From a virus: DNA of 47,726 nucleotides. Shown one piece after another: positions 10,224 through 44,469 of this stretch. How positions within the stretch are numbered: the stretch's first letter is position 1; the number at the start of each line of letters is the position of its first letter. Below the pieces are notes generated by a model. The model did no database searches, was not told the origin of the DNA, and saw nothing but the letters and a program-made list of their open reading frames with translations. A program made the translations under genes and the position numbers. The stretch is from positions 1 through 47,726 of IMG/VR virus record IMGVR_UViG_3300006737_000052. The stretch is one strand, 5' to 3'.

Positions 10224-12602
10224 ATGCTCAACGTGCCTAGTTGGATCGAGAACATAGACAGCTTCACGGTGCGCCCCCCGTATTACGGGCTGGGTGCCGT
10301 GGACCTTACCCAGCGCCCCGTCGTCGCCTTCGACACCGAGACCTACGCCATGCCCGTGCAGCGATTCCGCACCGGATCCGGGCGTGAGAAGATGTACATG
10401 CGGAGGAAGGCTCCGCGCCTGGTCTGCGCGACTTTCGCGGGCAGAGGCCGCAACACGCCCGTGCCGGAGAGCATCTCCCAGGCCGCTGCGGCGGGCCACG
10501 CCCTCGTCTACAGGGAAGGGGCGGCCTGGAAGGCAATCGTCGACCGTACCGGGGCGGAGGACGTCTTCCACGAGCTGCTAGAGGACGACAGGACGCTCCT
10601 CGTGGCCCACAACACCCCCTTCGACTTGGGCGTGGTAGCCAACGCCTGGCCCGTCCTTCTCCCGGCTGTGTTCCGCGCCCTACAACAGGACCGGGTGACG
10701 GACACCATGATCCGAGAGATGCTGCTCAAGACAGCCTTCGGGCAGATGCAGGACGACGGCACCGGGCGCGGCCCACGCTTCGGCTTGGCCGCCGTGGCGA
10801 AGGAGTACAACCTCGCAGACAGGTCCCACCAGAAGAAGGGCGGGGACGTGTGGCGCATCCGCTACCACGAGCTAGACGGCGTCCCTCTGCGGGACTGGCC
10901 GGAGGCCGCCGTGCAGTACGCGCTCGACGACGCGGTCGACGCCCTCATGATCTTGCTCCTACAGGCTCCGCTGGGCAAGGAGCGTCGGTCGGACCAGTTC
11001 TTCCCCGTCTCCACCCTTGAGGGAGGGATCATCAACGAGACGCCCCAGGTCCGGGCGCATTGGGCGCTGCACCTCATGGGGATGTGGGGCCTGCGCGTGG
11101 ACCCCGCGCTCTACGAGAGCTGGGGCAGAGAGATCGATAGCGCCGTCACCTACGCGAAGGCCGTGGCCCGCAAGGCGGGCTTCTTGCGCCCCAACGGGAC
11201 GATCAACAAGAAGAAGCTGCAGGAGTACGTGCGGGACGACTACGCCGCCCGTCGCCAGCCCTACCCGCTCACGCCCAAGGGCAACGAGGTCTTGGGTCAG
11301 ACAGGGGAACGCCCCGAGGATCTGAAGTACGTGTCGACCTCCAAGGAGGCCCTACTGGAGTGCAAGCGACTGACGGTGGAGTACGGCGGGGAGCAGGTCG
11401 AGGTGCTCCGCCTGTGGGGTGAAACAGCGTTCATGATCCGCATGCAGACCACCTACTACGAGCCCGCTGGCATGGGCAGAGATCACGCCATGCTCTACGA
11501 CTTCAACCCGATGGTGGCGACGGGCCGGACGTCGGGCCGCTCGCCCAACATGCAGAACCCCCCGAGGTCGGGATCGTTCCGCGAGCTGTTCGTCGCTCGC
11601 CCCGGCAAGGTGCTGTCCTCCGTCGACTACGCAGCGGAGGAGCTTCGGACCCTCGCCCAGATCCACTACTGGTGGTTCGGGTCGTCAGCTCTGCGGGACG
11701 CCTTCCTGGAGAAGGAGGACCCGCATGCCATGTTCGGCGCGATGCTGGCCGGGGAGACCTACGACGTCTTCAGGACCTGGAAGCGGAGTGAAGACAAGGC
11801 GAAGCGCAAGAGATTCAAGGATCTGCGGCAGGCTGCCAAGGCGGCCAACTTCGGCTACCCAGGTGGACTCGGTCCAGAGAAGTTCATCCAGTATGCCTGG
11901 GACACCTACCGCGTAGACCTGGCGGATGTCGCGGTCCTGACAGAGTTTGCTCCAGCTGTAGAGAGGTCCGACGAGGATCATAAGGCGCTGCAGATGCGAT
12001 ACGCCAAGGCGCTCAAGGCGCAGTGGCTTCGGCAGTGGGGCGAGGCCAAGAGGTACATGGACATGATCGGGGACGAGGTCCGCCACGCGGAAACCTTCAC
12101 CTACCTCCAGCCGGTCTCCTGGCGACAGCGTGGGGGCTGCTACTACACCTCTGGGAACAACACCGGTTTTCAAGGGCTGGCCGCAGACGCCGCGAAGGAG
12201 GCCTTGTGGCGCGTGGCGGCGTTGTGCTACCTCAAGCCCGAAGAGGCCGCCGCCGTCCTTCAGAACGCGCCCTGGCCTGACGACGTCGATGCTACCGTGG
12301 TGACGCGCTGGGGGAGCAAGCTACACGGCTGCCGCCCGGTGCTCTTCATCCACGACGAGATCTTGGTGGAAGGCCCGGAGGAGACGGCCCACCTGTGGGC
12401 AACCGCCCAGGCCGAGGTCATGTCCGCCGCCGCGCAGATATACACGCCCGACGTCCCCCAGATCGCAGAGGAGGCCATCATGCGGAGATGGTACAAAGGT
12501 GCAGAACCTGTGTGGCAGACCCCCTGCGGATCGCGTTACGAGGACAAGGAACAGATCCCAGCGGGAGAGAAGAGCAAGCTCGTACCCTGGGAACCATCCT
12601 AA
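10224..12602 (+). CDS. A-family DNA polymerase with 3'-5' exonuclease
   Basis: 792-aa replicative polymerase without the 5'-nuclease domain of bacterial Pol I. The exonuclease domain has DTE (Asp37, Glu39), HNTPFDLG and YALDDAVD. In the polymerase domain, motif A is SSVDYAAEELR (Asp468), the O-helix is RQAAKAANFGYPGG (Arg535, Lys539, Phe543) and motif C is HDE (710-712). Phe543 sits where E. coli Phe762 discriminates against dideoxynucleotides. The position of E. coli Tyr766 is Gly547, a departure from the classical motif. The start is ATG 10224 with CGGAG upstream. It follows a terminator and precedes a RuvC-like gene by 12 bases. Confidence 0.95.
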   Translation: MLNVPSWIENIDSFTVRPPYYGLGAVDLTQRPVVAFDTETYAMPVQRFRTGSGREKMYMRRKAPRLVCATFAGRGRNTPVPESISQAAAAGHALVYREGAAWKAIVDRTGAEDVFHELLEDDRTLLVAHNTPFDLGVVANAWPVLLPAVFRALQQDRVTDTMIREMLLKTAFGQMQDDGTGRGPRFGLAAVAKEYNLADRSHQKKGGDVWRIRYHELDGVPLRDWPEAAVQYALDDAVDALMILLLQAPLGKERRSDQFFPVSTLEGGIINETPQVRAHWALHLMGMWGLRVDPALYESWGREIDSAVTYAKAVARKAGFLRPNGTINKKKLQEYVRDDYAARRQPYPLTPKGNEVLGQTGERPEDLKYVSTSKEALLECKRLTVEYGGEQVEVLRLWGETAFMIRMQTTYYEPAGMGRDHAMLYDFNPMVATGRTSGRSPNMQNPPRSGSFRELFVARPGKVLSSVDYAAEELRTLAQIHYWWFGSSALRDAFLEKEDPHAMFGAMLAGETYDVFRTWKRSEDKAKRKRFKDLRQAAKAANFGYPGGLGPEKFIQYAWDTYRVDLADVAVLTEFAPAVERSDEDHKALQMRYAKALKAQWLRQWGEAKRYMDMIGDEVRHAETFTYLQPVSWRQRGGCYYTSGNNTGFQGLAADAAKEALWRVAALCYLKPEEAAAVLQNAPWPDDVDATVVTRWGSKLHGCRPVLFIHDEILVEGPEETAHLWATAQAEVMSAAAQIYTPDVPQIAEEAIMRRWYKGAEPVWQTPCGSRYEDKEQIPAGEKSKLVPWEPS

Positions 12603-18482: not shown

Positions 18483-19319
18483 CTAAGCGGTCTTTAGTTC
18501 CGTGCAGACAATGAACGTGCCGGTTTTCATGGTGAAGTCTGTGCTGCCGTTTACGTTCTCTGCCACCAACAGATCTAGGGTTCCTGCGGTGCTACTTGTA
18601 AAGAGCGCACCCATGAAGTAGGCCACCTGGGTAGTGCTCCCGCCCGCGCCATTCACGGTGATGGTGTCCGTTCCGTTGAAGTTCTTAGGCACCTGATCTC
18701 CGTCCAAGTCTTGATGCCAAGCACCGCTCGCTCCTGTGGGGGGATCGAACGCGATCTTACCGTCGCTAGATGTACCTGACGTGTAGTGGATCATGCAGAT
18801 CATGTTGTACTTGGTGTTAGCCTCTAAGCTAGGACCAGTCATGACCTTGGTGAGGGTCGTACCGTTTACCGGCGTAGCGTCAGACGCTAGAACAGTGGAG
18901 AGAACCGTCTGGGTCGTTAAGAGCTTGGTTGCTAAGCCGTCCGTGAAGGCGTTGGTGTCTGCCTCTCCTTCGTAAAGCGCCTTGATCTGCGCACCGGTCT
19001 GGTCTTGAGTGGCCCCTGCTTCTACGCCGTTGAGCTTGGTGAGCAAGGCGTCCGTGAAGGCGTTGGTGTCTGCCACCGCTTCGTACGCGGACTTGATCTG
19101 GGCACCGGTCTGGTCTGCAGTAGCAGAGGTCTCGATGCCGTTGAGCTTGGTGAGCAAGGCGTCCGTGAAGGCGTTGGTGTCTGCCACCGCTTCGTACAGA
19201 GCCTTGATCTCCGCACCGGTCTGATCTGCCGTAGCAGAGGCCTCGATGCCGTCGAGCTTGGACTCGTCGGAAGAGCTGAACTCCGACCCAGAGCTGCCTC
19301 CTGGAAAGATCGCGGGCAT
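18483..19319 (-). CDS. Tail fibre protein with 37-aa tandem repeats
   Basis: 278 aa. I start it at ATG 19319, two bases after the previous stop, with GAGGTCTGAT before it. Residues 25-140 are three near-identical 37-residue repeats of the form LDGIEASATADQTG...NAFTDALLTK, a pattern familiar from fibres of many environmental phages. The C-terminal 130 residues are beta-rich (SGTSSDGKIAFDPPTG, NGAGGSTTQVAYFMG) and are probably the receptor-binding or trimer tip. It is the last structural gene of the tail set. Confidence 0.8.
   Translation of the reverse strand: MPAIFPGGSSGSEFSSSDESKLDGIEASATADQTGAEIKALYEAVADTNAFTDALLTKLNGIETSATADQTGAQIKSAYEAVADTNAFTDALLTKLNGVEAGATQDQTGAQIKALYEGEADTNAFTDGLATKLLTTQTVLSTVLASDATPVNGTTLTKVMTGPSLEANTKYNMICMIHYTSGTSSDGKIAFDPPTGASGAWHQDLDGDQVPKNFNGTDTITVNGAGGSTTQVAYFMGALFTSSTAGTLDLLVAENVNGSTDFTMKTGTFIVCTELKTA
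18910..19260 (-). repeat. 111-bp tandem direct repeats inside the fibre gene
   Basis: Three copies of a 111-bp unit, each encoding 37 residues; for example GAGCTTGGTGAGCAAGGCG recurs at 19031 and 19142. Copies are almost identical in DNA, more than protein constraint needs, so recent duplication or recombination is likely. Confidence 0.85.
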
Positions 19320-19320
19320 A

Positions 19321-20103
19321 TCAGACCTCTGCAATAGCGGGAGCGATGTAGACCCACGGGCGAGCCGTAACGCCTGACCCGTCTCCCGAGTCCTTGGTGA
19401 CGCTGTACGTCTCGACGTACAACCGCATGAAGCCCGCCACGTTGACGCGCTCCACAAAGCCCTGCGCGCTGATCGCCCCGATGTCTCCGGCTTGCGGGGT
19501 GACCCACGGAGCCGCTACGGGGATCAGGGTGGAGGTGGGCAGCTGGACCCACAGACGAGCACTGAAGCTCGCAGGATCGACGTAGCCCTCTAGCGCGGCT
19601 GCAGGAACCGCCGACCCACTACCAGGCGAGGTCTCGCCGGTAAAGTTGATCGTCATGTTCGCCGCTGCGCCGCCGTTGACGTCCGTCTCGTAGACCCAGA
19701 CGGTGTCCAAGACGCCGTCCGTAGTTCGCGCCACCGCACTGGCCCGGATGTTGCCCACGGCGGCGGTGTTGATCTTGCTCACCAGGTCGGCAACCGTGGC
19801 CATGGCGTCGGCCTTACCGGTGGAGGCGTAGGCCGTGCCGTCAACGGTCACGATGTAGTTGTAGGCCGACAGGAAAGCAGATCGAACAACCGTAAGGTGC
19901 GCCGACTTCCGCCCCGCCACTGCGCGGCGAGAGAGAAGCACGTAGGTGGAGACGGAGTTCGCGGTAGACACGCCGATGTTGACCGCGTTGGTGCCGGTAC
20001 CGGGCGGGTACAGCATCTCGGCGGGGGTGTCGATCCATGTGGCGTTGGGGTTCCGACCGATGGAGAGTTCGGTCGCGCCAAGGAGGTTGCTTATGATTGC
20101 CAT
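19321..20103 (-). CDS. Tail/baseplate structural protein, 260 aa
   Basis: Beta-rich protein low in Cys, with GVSTANSVSTYVLLSRRAVAGRKSAH near the start and a region similar in style to Ig-like or discoidin-like virion domains (TVDGTAYASTGKADAM). No catalytic motif. The ATG is at 20103 with GGAG upstream. It lies between two fibre-type genes, so it is probably a fibre or adhesin subunit; the precise role is unknown. Confidence 0.7.
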   Translation of the reverse strand: MAIISNLLGATELSIGRNPNATWIDTPAEMLYPPGTGTNAVNIGVSTANSVSTYVLLSRRAVAGRKSAHLTVVRSAFLSAYNYIVTVDGTAYASTGKADAMATVADLVSKINTAAVGNIRASAVARTTDGVLDTVWVYETDVNGGAAANMTINFTGETSPGSGSAVPAAALEGYVDPASFSARLWVQLPTSTLIPVAAPWVTPQAGDIGAISAQGFVERVNVAGFMRLYVETYSVTKDSGDGSGVTARPWVYIAPAIAEV

Positions 20104-26408: not shown

Positions 26409-28073
26409 TCATGCGACGTTGGCAATACCTCGCCCTTGACCCATCATAAACATGTTGATGAAAGAGTCTGGATCTGAAGTCACGGCGTTGACGTTGTTGT
26501 TCTGCGTGATCTGTATGGGAGGCGCGGGGGCGGCGGCCATGCCCGCCCCGTAGAAGAGCTGGTTCGTTGTAGTGGGACCCGCGCCCGTGAAGGCGTTGGA
26601 GATCGCTCCGCTAAAGCCTCCAGACCGACCCAACCTCCGCGTAAAGGCGTCGAGAGGGCCGGAGTTTCCGAACAAACCGATAAGGCCCCCGGTAAGGAGT
26701 TGGACAAGTAGACTGACTGCTTCGACGACGACGTTGACTATACGTACCACAGTGTGGAATAGGTGCCCCATAAACTGCAGCACGAGCCCAAAGGTCTGGA
26801 GGACGCCTGCCGCCATCACAAGCAGTAGCGGGAAGACAGGCCCCCGAGCAAAGGCGATCACACCCGATACGACCTGCTGGATCGTATCCCGAAGCTGCAG
26901 CGCGAACAGGAAGATCGACCTCATCATTAGGTCGATGAGGGGCATGCCTCTCAACCACTGGCCCAGGGCCTTGAGGTAGGGAAGCAGGCGACCATCCCCC
27001 CCGCGTAGACTGGTCATGATGTCGTCTACTGCGATTGCGATGGCTAGAACCGCAGCCCCCAGAACAGCGGCCTTACCTATGAAAGGACCGAACACGACTC
27101 CACCGATCAACATCACCGCAACCAACATGCCGTGCAGCAACCGAGCCATGGTCTCGCCGTCGTCTTTGATGAACTTATCGAAGAACCCGCGCAGCCTGTC
27201 CAGCCCGTCCAGGAGCGGCTTGAAGGACTTGTCGATATGTGTTCCAAACTTGACCGCGTTATTGTTCAGGAACACAAGCAGAGGCTTGATCGTGTTGCCC
27301 AACACGTCCGCAGCGCGGGTCAAGACCGGCAGCAAAGCAGATCCGACCGTGTTGGACAGCGCCTTCATAAGACGCCCGATCCTTCTCTGGGCGCGAGCGA
27401 ATCTCTGCCCTTCTTTGAGCTGTTGCTTGGACAGCACCAGGCCCGTGTCGATAGCCTCCTGCATCGCAGCGGCGATCTCCTGCACGTTGCCCATCTGGCC
27501 GAACTTCTGGGCCAGTCCGCCGCCCAAGATCTTCTCCAGAGCGGCCATCCTTCGGTCTGGAGCCAGTGTGTCCAGCTGCTTCATCATCGCCAAGAACTTC
27601 TCAAGTCCTCCGTTGGCGTTCTGAAAAGTGCTGGCTGTAAGGCCGAAACGGGCGAAGTCCTCCGCTATTCCCTTCTCTCCAGATCGGACGTCGTCTATCC
27701 TCTCTGTCAGCGTCTGGAACAGATCGGACACGTCGTTAAGCTCTGCTCCCACCACGGACGCTGCGCCCGCAAACGCCTGCAGCTGCCCCGTCGCCACGCC
27801 CGAGAACTTGGACAGCTTGAGGATGTCCTCACTGGTCTTCGCCACGCGCATCACGCCGAAGACCTCGTTCAGTCCCCTCCAAGCCCTCGTGAGGGACTGG
27901 ACCAAGCGATCTAGAAAGATCGTGGTGATGCCCATCGAGATGAAGCTCTTTCGCAGCCCGAAGACCTTCTTGCCTAGCGCAACTAGGCGGTTGCCTCCCG
28001 AGGTCCCGATGTTGATCCGCAGACCCATTAGGATCTGCCCACCGGTTCCTGCAATACCGCTAAAGATCGACAT
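26409..28073 (-). CDS. Tape measure protein
   Basis: 554-aa helical protein with alternating charged coiled-coil segments (about 115-240) and a long hydrophobic block (about 313-349), then further hydrophobic helices to 470, and a short polar tail ending in an asparagine-rich ITQNNNVNAV. These are the marks of tape measure proteins, which set tail length and enter the cell membrane. At the family rule of roughly 0.15 nm per residue the tail would be near 80 nm, a short contractile tail. It follows the frameshifted tail-assembly pair. Confidence 0.9.
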   Translation of the reverse strand: MSIFSGIAGTGGQILMGLRINIGTSGGNRLVALGKKVFGLRKSFISMGITTIFLDRLVQSLTRAWRGLNEVFGVMRVAKTSEDILKLSKFSGVATGQLQAFAGAASVVGAELNDVSDLFQTLTERIDDVRSGEKGIAEDFARFGLTASTFQNANGGLEKFLAMMKQLDTLAPDRRMAALEKILGGGLAQKFGQMGNVQEIAAAMQEAIDTGLVLSKQQLKEGQRFARAQRRIGRLMKALSNTVGSALLPVLTRAADVLGNTIKPLLVFLNNNAVKFGTHIDKSFKPLLDGLDRLRGFFDKFIKDDGETMARLLHGMLVAVMLIGGVVFGPFIGKAAVLGAAVLAIAIAVDDIMTSLRGGDGRLLPYLKALGQWLRGMPLIDLMMRSIFLFALQLRDTIQQVVSGVIAFARGPVFPLLLVMAAGVLQTFGLVLQFMGHLFHTVVRIVNVVVEAVSLLVQLLTGGLIGLFGNSGPLDAFTRRLGRSGGFSGAISNAFTGAGPTTTNQLFYGAGMAAAPAPPIQITQNNNVNAVTSDPDSFINMFMMGQGRGIANVA

Positions 28074-28076
28074 CGA

Positions 28077-28367
28077 CTATCTCCTGGATCTCCCAGACTC
28101 TCGCATCTTCTCTTCTATCTCCTTCATAGAGGAGATCTTGTCCGCGTCTACTTTGTCTAGGATTGCGTGCATTTGGATGATCTTACGGAAGGATAGCCGT
28201 GCTGCGGTCCCTGGGAGCATCTTTAGGAAGGGGTGGATCTCAAGTCTCAAGTATAACCAGTCTTGCCCGACTCCGAGGGCTAAAAGATCTAGGACAGATT
28301 GATCGGCTACGCCGGGGCTGGCTCCAGCGGGTGGGTCGTCCTCGACTACTCGCTCTCGTCGAACCAT
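28077..28367 (-). CDS. Tail assembly protein, T part of a G/GT pair
   Basis: The -1 frame relative to the upstream 28858 gene, open through the overlap and 96 aa from the ATG at 28367. No ribosome site precedes that ATG, and a slippery TTTTTTC lies just upstream in the right phase. The likely product is therefore the C-terminal part of a frameshift fusion of about 260 aa (159 residues of G plus about 101 from this frame). This is the usual arrangement between tube and tape measure genes, where G and GT act as chaperones for the tape measure. Confidence 0.8.
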   Translation of the reverse strand: MVRRERVVEDDPPAGASPGVADQSVLDLLALGVGQDWLYLRLEIHPFLKMLPGTAARLSFRKIIQMHAILDKVDADKISSMKEIEEKMRESGRSRR

Positions 28368-28858
28368 CCAGCCAGTAGCTCGAAAAAACCGTTGATCTCC
28401 ATAACTCGCTGGAAGGCGTCTCTGAACTCTCTCCAGTTTCGGGTGTAGGCCAGATCGAACTCGGCGGTGTTTCCGCCTCGCCCAACCAGTCGCTTTCCGG
28501 CACGGGTCGTGTGCTGTAGGACCAGAGGAGCCAGCTTGGTCATGCCGCCCATGGACTGGATGCCCGTCTGCGCCGACGTGACGATGTGGTCTAGGTCGAT
28601 GTGTTCCAAGATCTTCGAGAAGGAGATCTCCTGCTCGTCCTTCTTGAGGGCGGCGCTCTCCATCCGCTGGGCCTCTGCGGCTCGCGCCGAGGAAAACACC
28701 GCCTCCGCCAGAGGACCCATGCCTACAGCGAGCATGGCGTCTACAACCTTGAGGCCGGAAGATCCGACGTGAGGAGAGACCACGTACTGGACGGGCTCTC
28801 CCTTCCGGTCGTAGAGGGTGAAGGAAAGGTCTTCGAGATCAGCTAGGCTTTGAGACAT
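28346..28858 (-). CDS. Tail assembly chaperone, G part
   Basis: 170-aa protein, helical and acidic, with LEHIDLDHIVTSAQTGIQSMGG and an aromatic end (NWREFRDAFQRVMEINGFFELLAGW). It lies between the tail tube gene and the tape measure, the canonical gpG position. ATG start with AGGGGGA upstream. The last 22 bases overlap the T frame. Confidence 0.8.
   Translation of the reverse strand: MSQSLADLEDLSFTLYDRKGEPVQYVVSPHVGSSGLKVVDAMLAVGMGPLAEAVFSSARAAEAQRMESAALKKDEQEISFSKILEHIDLDHIVTSAQTGIQSMGGMTKLAPLVLQHTTRAGKRLVGRGGNTAEFDLAYTRNWREFRDAFQRVMEINGFFELLAGWFDESE
28382..28388 (-). promoter_or_regulatory. Slippery heptamer for -1 ribosomal frameshift
   Basis: Read on the minus strand the site is T-TTT-TTC, aligned with the zero frame codons GGT-TTT-TTC, the X-XXY-YYZ form. 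A -1 slip here moves the ribosome from the G frame into the open T frame with no stop between. This matches the programmed frameshift known for tail assembly genes of many phages. Confidence 0.75.
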
Positions 28859-28896: not shown

Positions 28897-29379
28897 CTAC
28901 GGAACCGCGATATTCAGCGGACCATGCACAGTCAAGAAGCGGGCGTAGGGCAGCTCCACTTGGTACTCTCGCGTGCCAACAGCCTTGGCCTTTGAGATCG
29001 TGGGCTCTTGGAGAAACACGCAATACTCCGACGAGATCTCGTCGCCGTTCGCGGGGTCCTTCAAGTAGAAGGGCACGGCGGCAAGAGGCCCACCAGCGAA
29101 GAGCAGGCCAGCCTGCGCCTTCACCAGGGCGTCGAGAAGCGGGATCGCTCCCGACGTCTCCATCAACGTGATCGTCGCCCGAACCCGCTCGTCGTTGTTC
29201 GCGGAGTAAACCACGTACCCGTCAGCGGAAACCTCGCTCTCCACGAGCTGGGACGGCAGCTCGAATGAGATGCCGCCGTCTGACCCGAAGTTCGACAGAG
29301 GAACGGTGCCGATGATGCACTGCACAGCGGCGAAGTTGTATGCGAAGGCGGGACGAGGAAGCCCCGGATAAGTCGCCAT
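28897..29379 (-). CDS. Tail tube protein
   Basis: 160 aa, beta-rich with a single helix, short and without Cys-rich parts. Patterns FAAVQCIIGTVPLSNFG, ISFELPSQLVESEVSADGYVVYS and RVRATITLMETSGAIPLLDALV fit myovirus tail tube proteins. It directly follows the sheath gene and precedes the tail-assembly pair. ATG start with GGAG upstream. Confidence 0.8.
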   Translation of the reverse strand: MATYPGLPRPAFAYNFAAVQCIIGTVPLSNFGSDGGISFELPSQLVESEVSADGYVVYSANNDERVRATITLMETSGAIPLLDALVKAQAGLLFAGGPLAAVPFYLKDPANGDEISSEYCVFLQEPTISKAKAVGTREYQVELPYARFLTVHGPLNIAVP

Positions 29380-29404: not shown

Positions 29405-30580
29405 TCAGGACGTAACGAAGGCGTTGATCGTAATCTTTCGGGCGTCCTCAAGGAAGTACGCCAAGACCGTGAAGGTGAGGGTCTTGTTGTTGAGTGCGGT
29501 CGCGTCGATCGGATCTGCGCTCTCGTAAGGCACCGCCTTCCCAAGTCGCTCCGCCTCTGAAGGACGGAGAGTGTGCTTGGCGCGAAGGGCGTTCTGCATG
29601 ACTGCCTTGATCTTGTTAAGGACGACCGATTGCCCCTGGGAGTCCATGGGGAGCTTGCGCCGCAGGTTGGCGTACTGGGCCTTGACCTCGGCCACCGCCA
29701 GCTGCAGTCGGTTCTCCAACCAGTCCCGCGTGAAGATGTGGTAGACAGGCCGTCCGCTGACCATCACGCCTGCGTCCACGTAGGTCTCGGTGCCAAACAT
29801 AGGCAGCGCGTGGTTCACGAAGAGGGCGTCTAAGGCGTCCTTGTTGGCTTGGGACAGATTGACGGTCATGGCCTTGGTCTTGGTCAGCACCAGGTTGCCG
29901 CCCGCAGCCTCGTTGTTCCAGTCCGTCGAAGCGTACAGGGCGCAGATCTCGGCCCAATCCGCCACGCCGTCGGTCACCGCGTTGAGGTTGTGGTAGGAGA
30001 CGTAGACCTGATCTTGGTGAGCGGCGCTAAGCTGCTTGATCGTAGCCAGGTTCTTCACAGCCGCTGAAGCGTCGGCGTCCAGGATGTCGGGAACGCCGTC
30101 GTTGTCCGCGTCTCCCGTGACTCCAGCGAACACAGGGTGTGATCCGCCCGTGTTGGAGTTGAAGGCCTCGACGCAGGCCTTGATGTCGTCCTGGTCTTTC
30201 GACGCGCAGATCACGGAGTGAAACTTGACGCTGTTGCTCTCCAGGTAGTTAGCCACAGTGGCGTAGGTATCGCTGCCTCCGATGGAGACGAACTTGACCG
30301 TGCGCGGGTGAAACTTCGCGCCGAAGAAATGCGAGACACACAGCGCGCCGATCGTTCCGAGTTGGCCGGAAGGGATCACTTGGGTTTCGCTGAAGGTAGC
30401 CAGCTTCGAGTCCGTGACGATCGTGGATGCGTTGAGGGATCCATCGCTAAGCGGGCTGTTGGCCGTCTTGTCGATGATCAGAACATCGGAGAAGTTCAGG
30501 ACGAAACCGAGCGTAGGCAGCAAACCTAGGTTCAAGTTCACTACAAAGTTGTCGAAGTGGGACTGGACGGGGGAGGTCAT
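29405..30580 (-). CDS. Tail sheath protein, DUF3383-like
   Basis: 391 aa. N-terminal VNLNLGLLPTLGFVLNFSDVLII, central YATVANYLESNSVKFHSVICASKDQDDIKACVEAFN and C-terminal TLTFTVLAYFLEDARKITINAFV follow the DUF3383 sheath-like family. The sheath polymer contracts around the tube to drive it through the envelope. A sheath plus gpJ-like and spike genes show that this is a contractile-tail phage. The start overlaps the tail terminator region by a 6-base gap with GGAG. Confidence 0.85.
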   Translation of the reverse strand: MTSPVQSHFDNFVVNLNLGLLPTLGFVLNFSDVLIIDKTANSPLSDGSLNASTIVTDSKLATFSETQVIPSGQLGTIGALCVSHFFGAKFHPRTVKFVSIGGSDTYATVANYLESNSVKFHSVICASKDQDDIKACVEAFNSNTGGSHPVFAGVTGDADNDGVPDILDADASAAVKNLATIKQLSAAHQDQVYVSYHNLNAVTDGVADWAEICALYASTDWNNEAAGGNLVLTKTKAMTVNLSQANKDALDALFVNHALPMFGTETYVDAGVMVSGRPVYHIFTRDWLENRLQLAVAEVKAQYANLRRKLPMDSQGQSVVLNKIKAVMQNALRAKHTLRPSEAERLGKAVPYESADPIDATALNNKTLTFTVLAYFLEDARKITINAFVTS

Positions 30581-35492: not shown

Positions 35493-37511
35493 TCAGCCCT
35501 TAGAAGGACCGTAGGTTGTACGCACTTTGGTAGTGAGGGGGATCTCAAGGGCATCCTTACGGATAACCCCTGCCTTGTTCGGGCTTTGCACCATCTCGGC
35601 AGCGGCGATGTAGTCCAGGTCGCTATCGAAACGGATCTCTGGTCTGGCGAAGTGTACCACCTTGCGGGCAAGATCCGCAAGACTGACGCATCCCTCGTAT
35701 TCGATCTCCAGATCGCGCGCAAGGGCGTCTAGTCGGGTGCGCTTCATATGGTAGGTTCCAGAGTCCATGTCCAGGGCGTCTGTTCTTCCTGGCATCTCTT
35801 CTTCCTCGCCTTGAGGAACCATCTTGAGGATCGGAGCCATCATGCCGGAGATCTTCTCAAGCATCTCGGACATAGCAGCTTCTAGCTGGGAAGCCGTGAG
35901 AGGAGCATCTTCGGACATCTCCTCCTCGTCCTCCTTCTCTTCTTCGGCGTCCTCGGCCATCTCTTCCTCGGCCTTGTGCTCCTCGGTGTGCTTGTCCGCC
36001 TTCTCTTCTTCGGCGTCCTCGGCCATCTCTTCCTCGGCCTTGTGCTCCTCGGTGTGCTTGTCCTCCTTCTCTTCTTCGGCGTCCTCGGCCATCTCTTCGG
36101 CGTCCTCGACGACTTCTTCAGGAGCATCGGATCGGGACTCCTCGCAGCCCTCGCAACCTTCGCACTCCTTGCAGCCTTCTTGGTCGACCTTCATCTCTTC
36201 CTCTTCGTAGGAGTCCTTCTCTTCCATAGAATCCCCCTCGTCGGCACCCGTGATCTTACGGGCGAAGTCGACGCCGGTTGTGCCACCCCAGCCGAGCCAG
36301 GCCACATAGCCTGCATCACGCCAAGGTTCGTTTTTGTATTTAGGATCGACTTCGGCGTTTTTCCGATGTCGAGCAAAGCCTGCCATCTTGGCAACGAGCG
36401 AGAGAGGGATCTTGTCCCCCGACGCCAACTTCCGCGCGGTTCGCATGCCCGCAGGGGTCATACCTCGCGCGCCTTCCTTCTCTGCGAGCCAACGCAGCGC
36501 CTTCTTGGCGTTGTTGCGTGCGGCCTCCGGCACGGAGTACATCTCCTCCGCGTCAGCTCGTGGATGGCCCTTGGGAAGAAGATCGTTGTCGTTGGTGTAC
36601 TGCGCGTCCTTGGGTTTGCCTGTCCGCACCAGCCGCAAGAAGGCGTTCACCCTGCCCATTGACCATTGGTTGCGGGTCATGCCGGGGCGGTGACTGGTGG
36701 AGAAGGCTCCAGCGCCGCGTCGGTAGACCGCCTTGAGCATACCGAGATCCACCTTCTTCGAGGGGGTGTCGCCGTGCTTCTCGTTGTGCTGGTCGACTTT
36801 GTTGCGGAGCCCCTTCTCGACGGTCTCGGAGATCTTGATACCACCGCGCTTACCGCCCGCGCTGCCGCTGGGGTTCTTCTTAGATCCCTTCACGCGCTCC
36901 GAGGGTTTGGCCGGGGTGCTCTTGTCGTCGCTTCGTAGATCCATCAACTCGCCGGACAGCACCGAGTCCGTCCGGAACTGCATCTGATCTCCGCCCCGAG
37001 CTTGGTCCGTCATGGCGACGTGATTGTAAACCCGGTTGACCTGGATCGCATCGTACCTGCCGAACTCCGGGTGGACTCCCGACTCTTCACGGGTCTCCAC
37101 GCGGTAGCCTGGGGACAGCTGCACCTTGCCTGCACGGACGGCGTCCTGCGCCTCGCGGCTTCTTAGCGCCATGCGGATCTTAACAAACCCGCCGTTGGCC
37201 TCTACGATCTCTTCCCCGACGTCTCCGTGAGAATACTTGAGGACGTTGTCCTCGTCGATCATCTCCGGGGGGTGCTCGATCGTGATGGGGGCTCTGCCCA
37301 ACGTACCGATGCTGTCTCGCTTCCACAGAGAAGAGGCCGGTACCAACTCCCGCCGAACAGATCCGTCGGGCATCATATACTTGTAGATGCCTGGCCTGGC
37401 GACGATTCCTTCCACGAGCAAAGCTCCACCCGGACCCTCGGCGGGAGGTAGGAGCTGTACGTCGTCGACCGGCACGGCGTCGACCCGGTATTGGTAGGAC
37501 GTCTTCTTCAT
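35493..37511 (-). CDS. Prohead protease (DUF2213-like) fused to accessory domains and acidic scaffold
   Basis: 672 aa in four parts. Residues 1-190 match DUF2213-type prohead proteases (APITIEHPPEMID, LSPGYRVETREESG, VYNHVAMTDQARGG, the His and Ser in these segments being candidate catalytic residues). Residues about 220-330 resemble DUF5824 (GAGAFSTSHRPGMTRNQW). Residues about 330-430 hold an NNAKKALRWL...RTARKLASG...RHRKN...PWRDAGYVAWLGWGG domain. A Cys-rich acidic part (GCKECEGCEGCEE) and 22-residue acidic repeats follow, then a helical C-terminus typical of scaffolds. A fused protease-scaffold would shape the procapsid and be cut away on maturation. Confidence 0.8.
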   Translation of the reverse strand: MKKTSYQYRVDAVPVDDVQLLPPAEGPGGALLVEGIVARPGIYKYMMPDGSVRRELVPASSLWKRDSIGTLGRAPITIEHPPEMIDEDNVLKYSHGDVGEEIVEANGGFVKIRMALRSREAQDAVRAGKVQLSPGYRVETREESGVHPEFGRYDAIQVNRVYNHVAMTDQARGGDQMQFRTDSVLSGELMDLRSDDKSTPAKPSERVKGSKKNPSGSAGGKRGGIKISETVEKGLRNKVDQHNEKHGDTPSKKVDLGMLKAVYRRGAGAFSTSHRPGMTRNQWSMGRVNAFLRLVRTGKPKDAQYTNDNDLLPKGHPRADAEEMYSVPEAARNNAKKALRWLAEKEGARGMTPAGMRTARKLASGDKIPLSLVAKMAGFARHRKNAEVDPKYKNEPWRDAGYVAWLGWGGTTGVDFARKITGADEGDSMEEKDSYEEEEMKVDQEGCKECEGCEGCEESRSDAPEEVVEDAEEMAEDAEEEKEDKHTEEHKAEEEMAEDAEEEKADKHTEEHKAEEEMAEDAEEEKEDEEEMSEDAPLTASQLEAAMSEMLEKISGMMAPILKMVPQGEEEEMPGRTDALDMDSGTYHMKRTRLDALARDLEIEYEGCVSLADLARKVVHFARPEIRFDSDLDYIAAAEMVQSPNKAGVIRKDALEIPLTTKVRTTYGPSKG
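35925..36100 (-). repeat. 66-bp repeats encoding acidic 22-aa units
   Basis: Direct repeats within the protease/scaffold gene, each encoding a unit like AEDAEEEKEDKHTEEHKA plus EEEM. Two full copies plus partial ends differ by only a few bases, suggesting expansion by slippage or unequal recombination. Confidence 0.75.
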
Positions 37512-38275: not shown

Positions 38276-40218
38276 CAACCGACCAGCAGCCGCTGCTCTT
38301 GAGCCCAGGAGATGCCTGCCGATCCTCCCCACCCCATCCAACGTAGGATGTTGGGCTCCGTCCAAGGCTCCTTGTGAGATCTGGCTCTATGCAGGGCTGC
38401 CGAGTAGGCCCCCCGATAGTCCGCCGCCTCGTCCATCTGGCGAAGGGTCTCTTGTCCAACCAGGCCCCTGGAGGCAAACTGCTGGATGCAGCGCCACTCC
38501 ACCTCGTCGAGCAGGTCGTAGATCTCTGGGTACTTCTGCTTCCAGAACAGCGCCTTGTTGGCCGCTTCCTTAACGAAGGCAGGAAGTCTGACCGTCTCCC
38601 CCTCGTAGGTCTCCGCGTCGATCTGCACCCACTCCGTGAGAAGCGACTGCGCCCCGCTGGCCATGGAGTCGAACTGCCCCTTGCCGGTGTTGAGCACCTG
38701 GAGGTCTACGCCTTGCGCCCCTGCCGTGGTCGCTTTTCCTTGCGGAGTTTTCTCGGATGGCTTCTGCCCGTCCGGGGCCAACGGTGCAGCCTCCATCTCT
38801 GGCGCTTCTTCAGGGTCGGCGGGTGCGTCCCAGTCGGCGGGCTCGAAGGGAGGCAGCTGGTCTTGCCAGCCGTGCTTGCCGTATCGGTTGGCCGCCAGGT
38901 ACCGAACGAAGGCCGCTCCGAGGGAGGGGTCCACGGCGGAGATCATGCCTGCGTGGATGGAGTCCCGCTGGGCGTGGATAAGCGACCGAGCGGCAGTGTC
39001 CTTCTCGCTCTCGCGCACCAAGGGGTTGAACTCGATCATAAACTTGCGGTACCGCTTCTGTCCTGCGAACGGGCCGGTCTTCGCGGCAGCGATCATCTGA
39101 TAGATGCGGTTCAAGGCAGGTTGTAGATCTTGCACCTGCGCGGTCTCTACCTTTCGGTGGTAGGCCTCTTGTTCCGTGCCCGGAGCCGTGGCTAGGCCGG
39201 AGGTAGCCTTGCCGTGGAGGATCGCCTCTGGGTATCCGGATGCTGCCACCAGGGCGTCCCTAGCGGTCTGCGACAGATCCCTGAAACCCGCCACGTTTGA
39301 CGCCCTGGACTCGTACTCCTCGCCCGCGCCCAGTACAATCATGCCCAGGAGGCTCTTAGAGAGCTTGAGGAGCTTCATGCGGAGCTGGAAGGCGTCCCTA
39401 GCGTCCGACGTGCCGATGGCCTTCAGGTCGGGGATCCTCACGATGTCCTGCTTCATCTCGCTGGCCAATATTGCCGCTGCGCCGTCAATGCCGTCCGCCC
39501 GAGCCAAGGCCAACCACATCGCCTGGAGGATGGACTCCCCCAGACCATAGGGGTGGTTGATCCTGTCAAACGAGCTAAGGGGGTTCCCGATTAAAGGGAT
39601 GATCCTAGACGGGTGGATGTCGACGGTACCGGTGAAGGCTTGTCCCCACCTACCGGAGAAACCAGAGAGCGAGCCCGCGTTGATCCTGAACGCCGAGGGC
39701 TCTCCCAGGCGTGTGGTGGGCGTGTCCTCCGCGTAGAAGTTCTGCGGTCGGCACTCGTCAGGATCAAAGACCATAATGTCTTGGACCTGGTAGAGCAGGT
39801 CCAGAGACAGCGGCTTGTTGAGCGGCTGGAGATCGTACGTGATGGGGACGATGTAGCCCGTGCCGTAGGCCCTGGCCCACTTCAGAGCTTTCGTAAGGAT
39901 CTGCGGGATATTGTGTTTCTTGTCTTCCTGGGCCCATCGCAGGTCCTGCGTGGCGTCCGGGTCGGACGGGTCCATGACCTTCCAGCCTCGTACCACGGCG
40001 TCCTCTGCGAGCAGGTCGACGATCCTTCGGGCGTAGTAGCTGCCCCGGTAGGCCTGCTTGAGCTGCGGCATACTCAAGGGGTTGATCGACTGGATATCCC
40101 AGGAAGCCCCTTTGTCTACAGCGGAGTCGCCTTGCCCCGTGAGCAGGTTGACGAACCCGTCCAGCCGCTCGTTGGCCGCCCTCATGATCGCAGCCTGGGC
40201 CTTGTCTCGAATCGCCAT
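38275..40218 (-). CDS. Portal protein, DUF1073-like
   Basis: 647 aa. The first 430 residues follow DUF1073 portals: INPLSMPQLKQAYRGSYYARRIVDLLAEDAVVRGW, LKWARAYGTGYIVPI, HPSRIIPLIG, GLGESILQAMWLAL, SGYPEAILHGKATSGLA, LNRIYQMI. A proline-rich linker (about 455-500) leads to a C-terminal extension ending in EPWTEPNILRWMGWGGSAG, which resembles the GWGG segment in the protease gene. The portal forms the DNA channel at one capsid vertex. The start has GGAGG. No terminase lies upstream, where it is normally found. Confidence 0.85.
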   Translation of the reverse strand: MAIRDKAQAAIMRAANERLDGFVNLLTGQGDSAVDKGASWDIQSINPLSMPQLKQAYRGSYYARRIVDLLAEDAVVRGWKVMDPSDPDATQDLRWAQEDKKHNIPQILTKALKWARAYGTGYIVPITYDLQPLNKPLSLDLLYQVQDIMVFDPDECRPQNFYAEDTPTTRLGEPSAFRINAGSLSGFSGRWGQAFTGTVDIHPSRIIPLIGNPLSSFDRINHPYGLGESILQAMWLALARADGIDGAAAILASEMKQDIVRIPDLKAIGTSDARDAFQLRMKLLKLSKSLLGMIVLGAGEEYESRASNVAGFRDLSQTARDALVAASGYPEAILHGKATSGLATAPGTEQEAYHRKVETAQVQDLQPALNRIYQMIAAAKTGPFAGQKRYRKFMIEFNPLVRESEKDTAARSLIHAQRDSIHAGMISAVDPSLGAAFVRYLAANRYGKHGWQDQLPPFEPADWDAPADPEEAPEMEAAPLAPDGQKPSEKTPQGKATTAGAQGVDLQVLNTGKGQFDSMASGAQSLLTEWVQIDAETYEGETVRLPAFVKEAANKALFWKQKYPEIYDLLDEVEWRCIQQFASRGLVGQETLRQMDEAADYRGAYSAALHRARSHKEPWTEPNILRWMGWGGSAGISWAQEQRLLVG

Positions 40219-40271
40219 AGCGTCCTCCGTCTAGATCTCCCCCTAGCATGGAGATCGACAGAGGGCAAGAC

Positions 40272-40296
40272 GTACCTAGGTACGGTACCTAGGTAC
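40272..40296. promoter_or_regulatory. Two tandem GTACCTAGGTAC palindromes upstream of the portal gene
   Basis: Two perfect 12-bp palindromes at 40272-40283 and 40285-40296, one base apart, with a partial third copy (GTACCTAC) at 40310. The site is in the 95-base gap before the portal start, so it may be an operator controlling late transcription. Confidence 0.5.
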
Positions 40297-40313
40297 GGAT
40301 TAGAGATGCGTAC

Positions 40314-40694
40314 CTACTGGACGAAACGAACGAAGCGACCTTGGTAGAACGCGCCGAAGCAGATCTCGTCCCTCACCTCGGCTAGGCGGATGCCGCTCTC
40401 GACATCCTCCAGGTTTGACAGAGGAGTCTTCTGCCCGAGATCATCCAGTTCGTACAGGCCGAAGTCGTCGAAGTCGGACCAGAGCTGCGGCAGGGTGTAC
40501 CAGAAGGTCGAGCCCACGGCCCGGAAGACGGGCGAGTCCGCAGGGTCGAGCTGCTCTTCCTCCGGTGCGTACCCCTCTGGGGAGTCATAGAGCCCCGCGT
40601 AGGGGTCCTCCTCCTCCGGTTGGGGTTGGGCGGGAGCTTGTTTGTAGACCTTGCTCGCCGTAGAGCGCAGAATGTTGGTTATCGCTTTGAACAT
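40314..40694 (-). CDS. Hypothetical protein, 126 aa
   Basis: N-terminal amphipathic basic helix (FKAITNILRSTASKVYK), then a long acidic, proline-rich linker (QPEEEDPYAGLYDSPEGYAPEEEQ) and a compact domain with FRAVGSTFWYTLPQLW. Unrecognised. Located directly upstream of the portal in the same operon; it could be a small head-assembly or host-interaction protein. It overlaps the preceding gene by 16 bases. Confidence 0.65.
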   Translation of the reverse strand: MFKAITNILRSTASKVYKQAPAQPQPEEEDPYAGLYDSPEGYAPEEEQLDPADSPVFRAVGSTFWYTLPQLWSDFDDFGLYELDDLGQKTPLSNLEDVESGIRLAEVRDEICFGAFYQGRFVRFVQ

Positions 40695-40906
40695 GGTTCC
40701 CCTCTAGAGATCTTCTTGTAGGCCTTGCGGAGCTGGGCGTTCTCATCTCGGACGGTCTCCAAGATCTCTAACGCCTCCGCTTGAAGTTTCCAGGCCGCGA
40801 GCTTGTGCTTCTCTTCGCCCTGGCTCGCCCTCCACGTCAGCTGACGTATGATCCGCTGTAGGTTGTTGATGGGCGGACAGGTGAAGTCGGGTAGGTCGTC
40901 ATGCAT
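40679..40906 (-). CDS. Small coiled-coil protein, 75 aa
   Basis: Helical and charged, with LAAWKLQAEALEILETVRDENAQLRKAYKKI forming a probable coiled coil. ATG start with AAGGAG. Overlaps both neighbours slightly. Some small-terminase subunits have similar coiled coils, but there is no further support for that. Confidence 0.6.
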   Translation of the reverse strand: MHDDLPDFTCPPINNLQRIIRQLTWRASQGEEKHKLAAWKLQAEALEILETVRDENAQLRKAYKKISRGEPCSKR

Positions 40907-41114
40907 ATCTGCTCCTTATGCAGATCTTCGAGTGTCCGGTAACGCGCAGCCAACCGAGCGGTCGGCCCCTAGAATACTTCTCCCCGCCCTGCCACTCCCT
41001 GACGCCGTCCGATATTCGACGGATCGTAGAGCCGTCGGGAAGCGTCAGGTGGTACCAGTGCAGCTGCGCCGTAGGGGGCGGAGGCCCCGCTTTCCACTTG
41101 ATCCCGTCATCCAT
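40899..41114 (-). CDS. Hypothetical protein, 71 aa
   Basis: Small basic protein with LHWYHLTLPDGSTIRRISDG, a short beta hairpin pattern. ATG start with GAGG upstream. Overlaps the following gene by eight bases. Function unknown. Confidence 0.55.
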   Translation of the reverse strand: MDDGIKWKAGPPPPTAQLHWYHLTLPDGSTIRRISDGVREWQGGEKYSRGRPLGWLRVTGHSKICIRSRYA

Positions 41115-41120
41115 GGTCCT

Positions 41121-41342
41121 CTAGACCTCCGAACTACGAGGGGCGCTGGCGACCCAAGGCCGCCCACATTCAGAGATCAAGAGCCACCGGTTGTCCTCCG
41201 GACAAAGCGAGGCGTACACCACCGCCGTCCGGGTCGAGCCGTTGTAGAGGATGGCCCCGTGGGGGCCGTCGCCCTGGCGAAGCCACCAGCCGTCCTCCCA
41301 CCGATGGCTGACGACGGGCACGGATTGTTCAGGCGTCTGCAC
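41121..41342 (-). CDS. Hypothetical protein, 73 aa
   Basis: Tryptophan-rich (RWEDGWWLRQGD, NRWLLISECGRPW) small protein of unknown function. GTG start with GAGGTG upstream. Overlaps the end of the upstream gene by 14 bases, in the line of small genes leading to the portal. Confidence 0.55.
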   Translation of the reverse strand: MQTPEQSVPVVSHRWEDGWWLRQGDGPHGAILYNGSTRTAVVYASLCPEDNRWLLISECGRPWVASAPRSSEV

Positions 41343-41727
41343 GGGGCACCTCGCGCGCCAGGGGTTTGGTGTCCCAGATCCTCTGCCAGACGCCGTCAGC
41401 GTCCACGTAGAAGGGCCGAGGCCGCCCGGTGTGGCTGCGCCCGATGTGAACCCGCTGCCAGCCCCACACCCCCTTCGAGTGAGCCCACACCTCGTAGTCC
41501 TCCGTCAGGTTGTAGGCGGGCACCTGGGGGATGTCGGTGATCTCCGACGTCCACTTCCAGGCCTGGTGGAGCGCGTCGAAGATCAGGAGCGGGTCTTCCT
41601 CCGATTGGGGGTTCAGCTCCACAGCGAGGGGGTACAGGGCGTCAGCGATCCGTTGGGGCTCGCACTCGTCCGTCAGGCCGTGGCGACCGTACAGGTACAG
41701 CCGCAGCTCTTGTTCGTCGTATTGCAT
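41329..41727 (-). CDS. Hypothetical protein, 132 aa
   Basis: Starts at ATG 41727, which follows GGAGG at eight bases; the frame is open to 41883 without a ribosome site. It has acidic helical parts (LYLYGRHGLTDECEPQRIADALY) and a Trp-rich region (HQAWKWTSEITDIPQ, VWGWQRVHIG). Unrecognised. Confidence 0.6.
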   Translation of the reverse strand: MQYDEQELRLYLYGRHGLTDECEPQRIADALYPLAVELNPQSEEDPLLIFDALHQAWKWTSEITDIPQVPAYNLTEDYEVWAHSKGVWGWQRVHIGRSHTGRPRPFYVDADGVWQRIWDTKPLAREVPRADA

Positions 41728-41740
41728 ATCTGCCTCCGAT

Positions 41741-41956
41741 CTACTTGACGCTGGCCGTGGGGACGGGAAGGTCGGTGCGGCCCTGCCAGGGCGTAGGCCA
41801 AACGGCGTGGACCTCCCAAGGGATCTCGGAGATGCCCTTGGTCTCCGACCACACGATGGTGCTGCCACCAGCCGTGCGGCCAATAACGCGGAGGTCGGTC
41901 TTCTCTCCGCTGGGGGAGAGCGCGATAGGGGAGTTCTTAAAGGGGGTATTGCTCAT
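41741..41956 (-). CDS. Hypothetical protein, 71 aa
   Basis: Begins at ATG 41956 behind GAGGTG. Small soluble protein with two beta-like stretches (DLRVIGRTAGGSTIVW, WEVHAVWPTPWQG). First gene of the run toward the portal; the 240 bases upstream contain no other convincing gene. Confidence 0.55.
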   Translation of the reverse strand: MSNTPFKNSPIALSPSGEKTDLRVIGRTAGGSTIVWSETKGISEIPWEVHAVWPTPWQGRTDLPVPTASVK

Positions 41957-42196
41957 TCTGCACCTCGTAGTTAGATCGTATTGTTGTTGTCTCAAGCGGG
42001 CAGGACTGCCCAACGCATACCTGCGCGCCACGCCTTCGAGCCCACCTCCACCTTGCAGAGGGTACCTCGAAACCGCCGCCTCGCAGCTCTTGCACTTCGC
42101 TCGCTCTTGAAAAACCGCATGCCCACACTCGCCTGCCGGGTTGTTACGAAACCCTTGTAGCCCGTGCGGGGGGCGGCGGAGCGATCCGCCCTATTT
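41957..42196. other. Gap of 240 bases without a supported gene
   Basis: No convincing start with ribosome site on either strand. On the minus strand, in the frame of the 42733 gene but after its stop codons, an open stretch reads AGECGHAVFQERAKCKSCEA, which looks like a zinc-ribbon fragment without a start. A plus-strand hairpin with T-run closes the gap at 42175-42198. Confidence 0.4.
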
Positions 42197-42198
42197 TT
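42175..42198 (+). terminator. Plus-strand terminator-like hairpin
   Basis: GGCGGA-GCGA-TCCGCC stem-loop followed by CTATTTTTAT in the plus direction. The surrounding genes are all on the minus strand, so it would serve a plus-strand transcript not explained by any gene listed here. Confidence 0.5.
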
Positions 42199-42733
42199 AT
42201 GCCAGACCGCGCCGGGTGGGGTTCGCCACCAGCTCCCGGTCTTCCGAGATGTCCAGGTCCACCAAGGGCAATCCCTTTCGGAGTAGGACGGCGTCCACCA
42301 GCTCCTGGATCGCGGGCAGGTCGGATACCTTCAAGGTCCCGCCCTGCAGCTCCTGGCGACGTGCGACCACCTCGTCCACAACATCTAGCGCAGCTTCGTA
42401 GCGAAGCGTCCCGGTCTTATCAAACAAGAGATCCTCCTCTGGGAGCGGGCCTACGGAAACGCTGGCCTCTCCCTGACTGTCAAGCAGTAGCTCCTGGAGC
42501 TTCCTCTCGATCCTCGTTTGTAGGAGCGTACAGATCAGATCGACCTCCTCGTGGCGCATCGGCACCTGGCCGTACCCAAGGATGCCCTTCTCGGTGACCC
42601 GCACCTTCAGGGTTAGATCGTCGAACACGACATGGTGGTCGATGTCCTGCATCTCCGCCAAGACGATCTCGCAGACCTCCGCCTCCACGGGCTTCTCCGA
42701 GTCTACGCTGATCACAAAACCTACATTCGACAT
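42197..42733 (-). CDS. Acidic hypothetical protein, 178 aa
   Basis: Starts at ATG 42733 behind AGGAG; the longer frame to 43012 would overlap a divergent gene. Rich in Glu, Asp and Val, with an N-terminal beta strand (VGFVISVDSEKPV) and helical acidic segments (EEVDLICTLLQTRIERKLQELLL). Unknown function. Divergent from the 42783 gene with 49 bases between starts, so a shared control region is likely. Confidence 0.65.
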   Translation of the reverse strand: MSNVGFVISVDSEKPVEAEVCEIVLAEMQDIDHHVVFDDLTLKVRVTEKGILGYGQVPMRHEEVDLICTLLQTRIERKLQELLLDSQGEASVSVGPLPEEDLLFDKTGTLRYEAALDVVDEVVARRQELQGGTLKVSDLPAIQELVDAVLLRKGLPLVDLDISEDRELVANPTRRGLA

Positions 42734-42782
42734 GTGCTCTCCTTCTGTGTTATCTCGCCCGGCGCTCAACAACAGGAGCCAC

Positions 42783-43136
42783 ATGGACAATCTAACACGA
42801 CAGAGCCTCCCCCCGTGCTCGATATGCGGCGCGGTGGCCCACGAGGACGTTGGGAAGGCAGGCAAAACCTTGTGTTCTAAGAAATGCTGGGCAGAGAATG
42901 AAGCCCGCTGGTTGTTGGTTGACGAAGCTCTCTTGGAGATCATCGAGGAGAAAGATCTGGCAAACGGCCAGCTACGCTCCCGCCTGGGCGGGGGGGTCGA
43001 GGGCCGCCTCATCCGTCTGCAAGATGGCCTCGCCCACGTCCTTACGGACGACGGCCCGCGCGTTCTGCCCCGGCTGCAGATCCAACTCTTCCGGGAAGAC
43101 GTGGGGCGGTACTGCCCGGAGGGGCTCTTAGTTTAG
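42783..43136 (+). CDS. Zinc-finger-like hypothetical protein, 117 aa
   Basis: ATG 42783 with AGGAG upstream. The N-terminus carries two Cys pairs (CSIC, then CSKKC about 17 residues later), a treble-clef or MYND-like zinc site, followed by a helical segment and a beta-rich tail (LIRLQDGLAHVLTDDGPRVLP) that could be SH3-like. It may be a DNA- or RNA-binding regulator. Its end overlaps by nine bases the end of the convergent 43382 gene. Confidence 0.65.
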   Translation: MDNLTRQSLPPCSICGAVAHEDVGKAGKTLCSKKCWAENEARWLLVDEALLEIIEEKDLANGQLRSRLGGGVEGRLIRLQDGLAHVLTDDGPRVLPRLQIQLFREDVGRYCPEGLLV

Positions 43137-43382
43137 CCCCGCGAGTACGGCCACCGACCGAACGGTGGGCGTCTCGCACTCCTCGCACCAGCCCTCCCGC
43201 TGGTCGGGCTCCATGCGCGAGGCCGTGAACCCGCAGACCCTGCAGATCCCCGGTTGAACAGATCGAAGGGCCACCTCAAAAATCAGGTCGTCGATGCTCT
43301 CGAAGCCCTCCTCCTCCGCGAGGGCCGCTAGGGGCGCGAGGTCCTGGGGATCTACATAGAAACTTGAGCTTAGCTCTGCCAT
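43128..43382 (-). CDS. Small zinc-ribbon protein, 84 aa
   Basis: ATG 43382 with AAGGAG. The C-terminal half carries CRVC and CEEC in the pattern ICRVCGFTASRMEPDQ...GWCEECETPTVRSVAVLAG, which I have often seen in small phage proteins of unknown role. The N-terminal half is an acidic helix pair. One zinc expected. Confidence 0.75.
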   Translation of the reverse strand: MAELSSSFYVDPQDLAPLAALAEEEGFESIDDLIFEVALRSVQPGICRVCGFTASRMEPDQREGWCEECETPTVRSVAVLAGLN

Positions 43383-43415
43383 CACTTCTCCTTGGTTGCT
43401 TCCGTAACCTAGCCC

Positions 43416-43444
43416 GGTTTGGTTTGAAAACCTCGATCTGTCAA
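43416..43444 (-). promoter_or_regulatory. Candidate promoter-like element
   Basis: TTGACA on the minus strand (43444-43439) followed 16 bases later by CCAAACC. The -35-like box is perfect but no TATAAT-like box is seen. Two similar TTGACA/CCAAAC pairs lie upstream of the 46539 gene, see findings. Confidence 0.25.
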
Positions 43445-43549
43445 AATACCTAGGTCCGTCCTGGACAGCCGTTTCAGCTCCCCACCCACCCCACATAGAG
43501 GGACGTCATGGCGGGGACCTAGGCATATGAAGATCGGCTACATTACGGC

Positions 43550-44224
43550 ATGCTTCGCTTCTTGACCGTTTTCTCGATCGCCTGCTCCCCCTCTCGCGAA
43601 CCGGTGTATGTGGGGGATCTAACGCCCGCTCCGACCGAGCCCGTGGTGGAGGTCGTGGCGGAGGCCGACGCGCCCGCGTTTGACACCGCGCTGGCCCCCG
43701 CAGCAGAGGTGACGCAGATCGTTCAGAAGAGGAACTACCTGCAGGTGAGCTACCGGGCGTCCGAGGCCGTCCTTCTTCGGGTAGGCAGCTGGTCCGACGT
43801 GGTATCGGGGATCGGCACGGTGTTGGCTCCGATCCGATGGACAGATCTGAACGTCTTAGATCAGGACATCTGGGTCCGACTTGAAGATCTGCAAGGTCAA
43901 CAGATCTCCTCCGTCCTCTTCGACACCAAGGCCAAGGTTCGACAGCCGGGGGACTGGAGATGGCGCACCGATGGAGACGAATCTCTAACCGTTGACTGCT
44001 TCAACATGGAACGCCCGCTGCTCCTGACCTACTCCGGATCTTTCGAGATAGTCTGGCCGCACGACGTCGACCCTTCTTGGATCACCGTAATGACCCACAG
44101 CGGCGTGTGGGAGATGCGTGAAGATCGGCTTGCTGGATCTCACCCGGACGGGGTTTGGATCACCATTGAGATCGAGGCGGAAGGTACCGTCCCCATCTGC
44201 GTTGTACGGTGGGAAGACGAGTAG
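43550..44224 (+). CDS. Hypothetical protein, possible lipoprotein, 224 aa
   Basis: The first residues (MLRFLTVFSIACSPS) form a short hydrophobic stretch followed by a Cys, like a minimal lipoprotein signal, but the position -3 residue is Ser and the hydrophobic core is short. An acidic proline-rich linker (PTEPVVEVVAEADAPAF) follows, then a beta-rich domain (VLLRVGSWSDVVSGIGTVLAP, LLLTYSGSFEIVWPHDVDPSWI). The linker and beta domain fit a surface or virion protein. There is no strong ribosome site before the ATG. It could be a superinfection-exclusion lipoprotein (inference). Confidence 0.55.
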   Translation: MLRFLTVFSIACSPSREPVYVGDLTPAPTEPVVEVVAEADAPAFDTALAPAAEVTQIVQKRNYLQVSYRASEAVLLRVGSWSDVVSGIGTVLAPIRWTDLNVLDQDIWVRLEDLQGQQISSVLFDTKAKVRQPGDWRWRTDGDESLTVDCFNMERPLLLTYSGSFEIVWPHDVDPSWITVMTHSGVWEMREDRLAGSHPDGVWITIEIEAEGTVPICVVRWEDE

Positions 44225-44469
44225 ATCCGTAACCCTAGCGGGATATAACTAGATCTCGGTCGAAATCACCGAGCACAATATGTGTAGGGGTTTTCTACGT
44301 ACGTAGTACACCCCCCACTGGTGCGGGTGGGCCGCAGGGGGGTTCGGATTTACCGCATCCCGGTGTCCGGGAAAATCCGAAGGGGGGGTGCCCGTATTTT
44401 CTACGGACACCCGAGGGGGTTTAGCACCCGCTTGTCAGTATTGCCCACCCGAGTAGGGTGAACAATACG
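44225..44469. other. Hairpin-rich gap between convergent genes
   Basis: Contains CTCGGT/ACCGAG (44255-44273), a perfect CTACGTACGTAG palindrome (44295-44306), GGGTGCCCGTA paired with TACGGACACCC around TTTTC (about 44388-44414), and GTATTG/CAATAC with an inner CACCC/GGGTG (about 44438-44468). These probably terminate both converging transcripts. Words such as TTCGGATTT and AAAATCCGAA recur at the right end of the window. Confidence 0.55.

Follow-up and report, generated by a model that had tools for sequence, protein, structure and literature searches.

The two overlapping minus-strand frames between the tail tube and tape measure genes of this phage very probably represent a predicted tail assembly chaperone gene with a programmed -1 ribosomal frameshift, which would give a 170-aa short form and a minority 260-aa fusion. 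The window, which comprises the whole 47,726 nucleotides of an IMG/VR virus record, had been the subject of an earlier note that proposed a programmed frameshift joining two tail assembly frames, and this proposal is supported by the gene position, the predicted fold of the zero-frame product, the annotation of Burkholderia phage Magia, and slippery heptamers in 17 of 17 relatives. The proposed event is well supported and ordinary for tailed phages, being a -1 frameshift of the G/GT (lambda) or E/E+E' (P2) type. Its elements are the following:

28346..28858, minus strand: predicted zero-frame tail assembly chaperone (G-like), 170 aa, an ATG-start ORF assigned by homology to the relative L009 and by predicted fold
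28382..28388, minus strand: slippery heptamer T_TTT_TTC, in frame according to the sequence and its computed phase, with a counterpart in all of the relatives
28077..28382, minus strand: putative extension read in the -1 frame (T-like domain; 101 aa and a stop codon), assigned by a profile of the relatives and a shared DW...MH.ILD motif
28077..28858, minus strand: predicted fusion product (GT-like), 260 aa, deduced from the two frames and the heptamer

The codons around the slip site read ...ATC AAC GGT TTT TTC GAG..., in which AAC GGT TTT TTC are codons 156-159 of the 170-aa ORF. The earlier note had claimed a correctly phased TTTTTTC within GGT-TTT-TTC on the minus strand, and T_TTT_TTC at 28388..28382 indeed has the X_XXY_YYZ phase, with the zero-frame stop codon ending 36 nt later. 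It had also described the -1 frame as continuing open into the frame at 28077 and the fusion as having about 260 residues; both statements were confirmed, since the -1 frame is free of stops over 28838..28077, and a slip at the heptamer would add 101 residues (28382..28080) before the stop at 28079-28077, resulting in a fusion of 260 aa.

The neighboring genes on the same strand are consistent with this assignment:

29405..30580, minus strand: tail sheath (phrog_205 tail sheath, E 3e-18)
28897..29379, minus strand: tail tube-type structural protein, upstream of the chaperone gene (phrog_280, E 1e-21; position after the sheath)
26409..28073, minus strand: tape measure protein, downstream (phrog_8125 and other tape measure families, E 7e-14)

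These genes belong to a minus-strand contractile-tail module that consists of portal (phrog_146), DUF2213 head protein, capsid (phrog_264), neck, sheath, tube-type protein, the two overlapping frames, tape measure, Dit-like protein, baseplate hub (phrog_196) and baseplate wedge (phrog_6). The position between tube and tape measure that the earlier note had named was confirmed by phrog_280 on one side and tape measure families on the other, and the same order is found in Magia and other relatives. The tape measure ATG (28073) lies 3 nt beyond the stop of the -1 ORF. Searches with PHROGs and Pfam profiles gave no direct match to the chaperone or the extension. Elsewhere in the module, a 66-bp repeat (35928-36098, 2.6 copies) codes for an acidic insert, rich in EEK, within the DUF2213 head protein (35493-37511, minus strand). 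No large terminase gene was recognized among the ORFs looked at (40218-47726), despite the presence of portal and head genes; in L007, a terminase-like ORF is located just upstream of the portal gene.

An AlphaFold2 model of the chaperone, built on twelve aligned chaperones, reached a pLDDT of 82. When this model was compared with the PDB by VIA-align 2, the HK97 tail assembly chaperone 2OB9 ranked first with a Z of 5.6 versus 4.3 for the next chain (rmsd 4.0, 94 residues aligned of 104), although its identity to the window chaperone is only 8% and the tail of HK97 is not contractile. Foldseek alone gave no significant match for the model in the PDB, and the matches in BFVD include proteins named tail assembly chaperone with a probability of 1.00. 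Taken alone, a Z of 5.6 is weak to middling, but it gains weight from the identity of the first-ranked chain, which is the functional homologue that one would look for at this gene position. In summary, the modeled zero-frame product is predicted to have the tail assembly chaperone fold.

The window phage is very distant from any named phage, and no close relative of it was found. Neither tblastn of the chaperone, extension, tube or sheath against the phage collection nor scans of viral contigs with the chaperone, tube or portal alone returned a relative, and a scan of genome contigs with the capsid gave no match. An alignment of the hub was discarded as a scan query for being too divergent. 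IMG/VR contigs were reached via alignments of the capsid and then of the DUF2213 head protein, and eleven distinct ones carry tube, chaperone and tape measure. Together with six phage records (Bordetella phage vB_BaM-IFTN9, Burkholderia phages Magia and BgManors32, Proteus phage ZX7, Aggregatibacter phage S1249 and uncultured phage ctsHD2), in all of which the gene order around the chaperone is the same, they form a comparison set of 17 distant relatives with the order tube - chaperone - tape measure. In L009, an ORF at 10755-11297 is homologous to the window chaperone (BLASTP E 9e-12), and the alignment stops at the FF of the slip site, while the chaperone of Magia shares only 13% identity with that of the window. 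L009 also encodes, at 996-2678, a Mu-F-like minor head protein with an apparent intein-like insert (CFPGD...VVHNC).

Past the heptamer, the -1 frames of all 17 relatives continue for 68-104 residues and encode a matching C-terminal domain, in which a Trp is conserved and the C-terminal helix ends in M/H/N..LD-like residues; the window shares the DW...MH.ILD motif. No homologous domain was seen in the +1 and -2 frames. With a profile of the extensions of five nearer relatives, built without the window, the window extension ranked first of 887 window ORFs at an E of 0.001 (next 0.087); with a profile of all 17 relatives' extensions, many of them very distant, it obtained an E of 1.3, which is short of significance, and BLASTP of the window extension against that of L009 alone gave no match. 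The model of the extension had a pLDDT of 71, with the first 30 residues being poor, and found no significant match in BFVD. The extension is unannotated in the phage records L002, L004, L006 and L008 (IFTN9, ZX7, S1249 and ctsHD2, respectively) and could be added there as a frameshift product.

Instead of a fusion, the two frames might specify separate proteins, with the -1 ORF being translated from its own ATG at 28367 by reinitiation or coupling. Close to the slip site, the -1 ORF has no ATG other than this one, which precedes the end of the zero-frame stop by 22 nt, and the annotation of BgManors32 has the downstream ORF as a gene of its own. However, no Shine-Dalgarno sequence was found at 28367, where the best match is 3 of 6, whereas the matches reach 5 of 6 at the starts of the chaperone (an SD-like AGGGGG 7 nt before the ATG) and the tape measure, and 4 of 6 at those of the tube and sheath, so that the earlier claim of an ATG without a ribosome site holds. 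Moreover, the extensions of L006, L011, L015 and L022 contain no ATG, GTG or TTG ahead of the conserved Trp, and separate translation would leave an in-frame heptamer in 17 of 17 relatives unexplained. Translation as two separate proteins is thus very improbable.

The case for the heptamer as a site of -1 frameshifting is strong through its conservation. In all 17 relatives, the upstream gene has, close to its end and at the equivalent position, an in-frame heptamer of the form XXXYYYZ (Y = A or T); relatives that keep both frames and lack the heptamer were also sought, and none occurred among the 17 with the order tube - chaperone - tape measure. The heptamer is TTTTTTC in L017, L018, L020, L021 and L022, TTTTTTT in L009, L012 and L006, TTTTTTG in L015 and L004, TTTTTTA in L024 and L008, CCCTTTT in L011, L003 and L005, GGGTTTT in L026, and GGGAAAT in L002. 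In L018, L004, L022 and L024 a stop closes the -1 frame 3-27 nt ahead of the heptamer, and the point of entry into that frame is thereby fixed in these genomes. When the genes were recoded with preserved amino acids and each genome's own codon usage, a heptamer arose in the overlap with a probability of 6-65% per gene; the product over the 18 genes, about 10^-13.5, overstates the strength of the evidence, as the genes share ancestry.

A fusion could also be produced by transcriptional rather than ribosomal slippage on the T run, and the runs of 7-8 T in L009, L011, L012 and L006 could permit slippage of the polymerase. Yet the run in the window has only six T, and the sites of L002, L003, L005 and L026 (GGGAAAT, CCCTTTT or GGGTTTT) include no long run but always show the X_XXY_YYZ phase, which makes the transcriptional origin extremely improbable.

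Considered for the window alone, the statistics on the heptamer provide modest support against a chance origin. The putative genes, with about 11,900 codons in total, contain only 7 in-frame XXX(A/T)3Z heptamers, of which the one at the slip site is the only T6 heptamer, and synonymous recoding with the codon usage of the phage produced a heptamer at the exact site in 2.6% of trials and within the last 60 codons of the chaperone ORF in 11%. In addition, the -1 frame of the window is by coincidence free of stops for 453 nt ahead of the heptamer, and the open overlap in the window is thus by itself little evidence. That heptamer and open frame merely coincide in a GC-rich gene, as the figure of 11% and these 453 nt would allow, is nevertheless hardly credible, given that the heptamer is kept in all 17 relatives and that the -1 domain is homologous.

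With regard to RNA signals that might accompany -1 frameshifting, the 75 nt past the heptamer folded no more strongly than shuffled sequences (z -0.56), and no common downstream structure was found in the relatives. Since sites of the lambda type reach a few per cent without strong stimulators, the missing downstream structure need not count against frameshifting. Upstream, one candidate element was noted:

28397..28400, minus strand: GGAG, SD-like, a possible but weak stimulator, 8 nt upstream of the heptamer

The spacing of this GGAG is matched only in L005 and is otherwise not conserved, and its role as a stimulator is for this reason weak. In this scattered phage group, the slip site stays at one protein position (FF or xF codons) while the heptamer varies among T_TTT_TTN, C_CCT_TTT, G_GGT_TTT and G_GGA_AAT and no RNA structure is shared. 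It is therefore conceivable, though we regard it as rather doubtful, that nothing but the heptamer would determine the slip rate, which its sequence may then tune.

According to the proposed frameshift, most ribosomes would stop at 28346 and yield the short form, while a minority, with tRNAPhe on the UUU and UUC of U_UUU_UUC, would slip back by one base and continue in the -1 frame to complete the 260-aa fusion. By analogy to lambda gpG/gpGT, the short form may attach along the length of the tape measure protein, and the long form may recruit tail tube subunits through its extension, with the ratio of the two forms being set by the slip rate; the slipping itself, its rate and this division of labor are proposed on the basis of such known systems. 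The lambda heptamer is G_GGA_AAG, whereas the window has T_TTT_TTC and, unlike lambda, a contractile tail. The predicted system of the window would share with lambda the short and frameshift-extended products, the gene between tube and tape measure, and the -1 slip near the 3' end. In lambda, both gpG and its -1 fusion gpGT attach to the tape measure, tube subunits are bound by the T part, and the ratio of 30:1 is important (PMC5009743). Phage P2 resembles the window phage in its contractile tail, its T6 slippery site and a downstream frame without a ribosome site, its E/E' slip site being T6G and E' having no ribosome site of its own (PMC3931495), while the heptamer of the window ends in C. 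The frameshift rate of P2 is 2-3 times that of lambda (PMC5009743). Likewise, Magia, whose annotation includes a -1 frameshift product of the tape measure chaperone (gp15/gp16; PMC7883833), shares with the window the order around sheath, tube, chaperone, tape measure and hub and the same kind of D-W extension, and differs in its CCCTTTT heptamer as well as in the low chaperone identity given above.

The proposed frameshift of the window leaves the general picture unchanged and adds support, in a phage without a close named relative, for one of the most widely kept recoding events of tailed phages. Moreover, the analysis yields 18 distant genes with slip sites and an extension that is missed by most annotations, a set that is useful for annotation and for the comparison of slip sites.

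Several other features of the window were observed. The record closes with a run of 40 C (47687-47726), which is probably a sequencing or assembly tail, so that the last bases are untrustworthy. A putatively coding ORF at 46391-47401 contains 57-bp tandem repeats (46845-47001, 2.8 copies, 95% alike), and a fibre-like ORF (18483-19457, minus strand) includes a 111-bp repeat of 3.1 copies (18921-19261) with repeated TGAEIKALYEAVADTNAFTDALLTKLNGIE-like units. Two UvrD-like helicase genes, at 1252-2820 and 7754-9403, are present in the early region of the phage.
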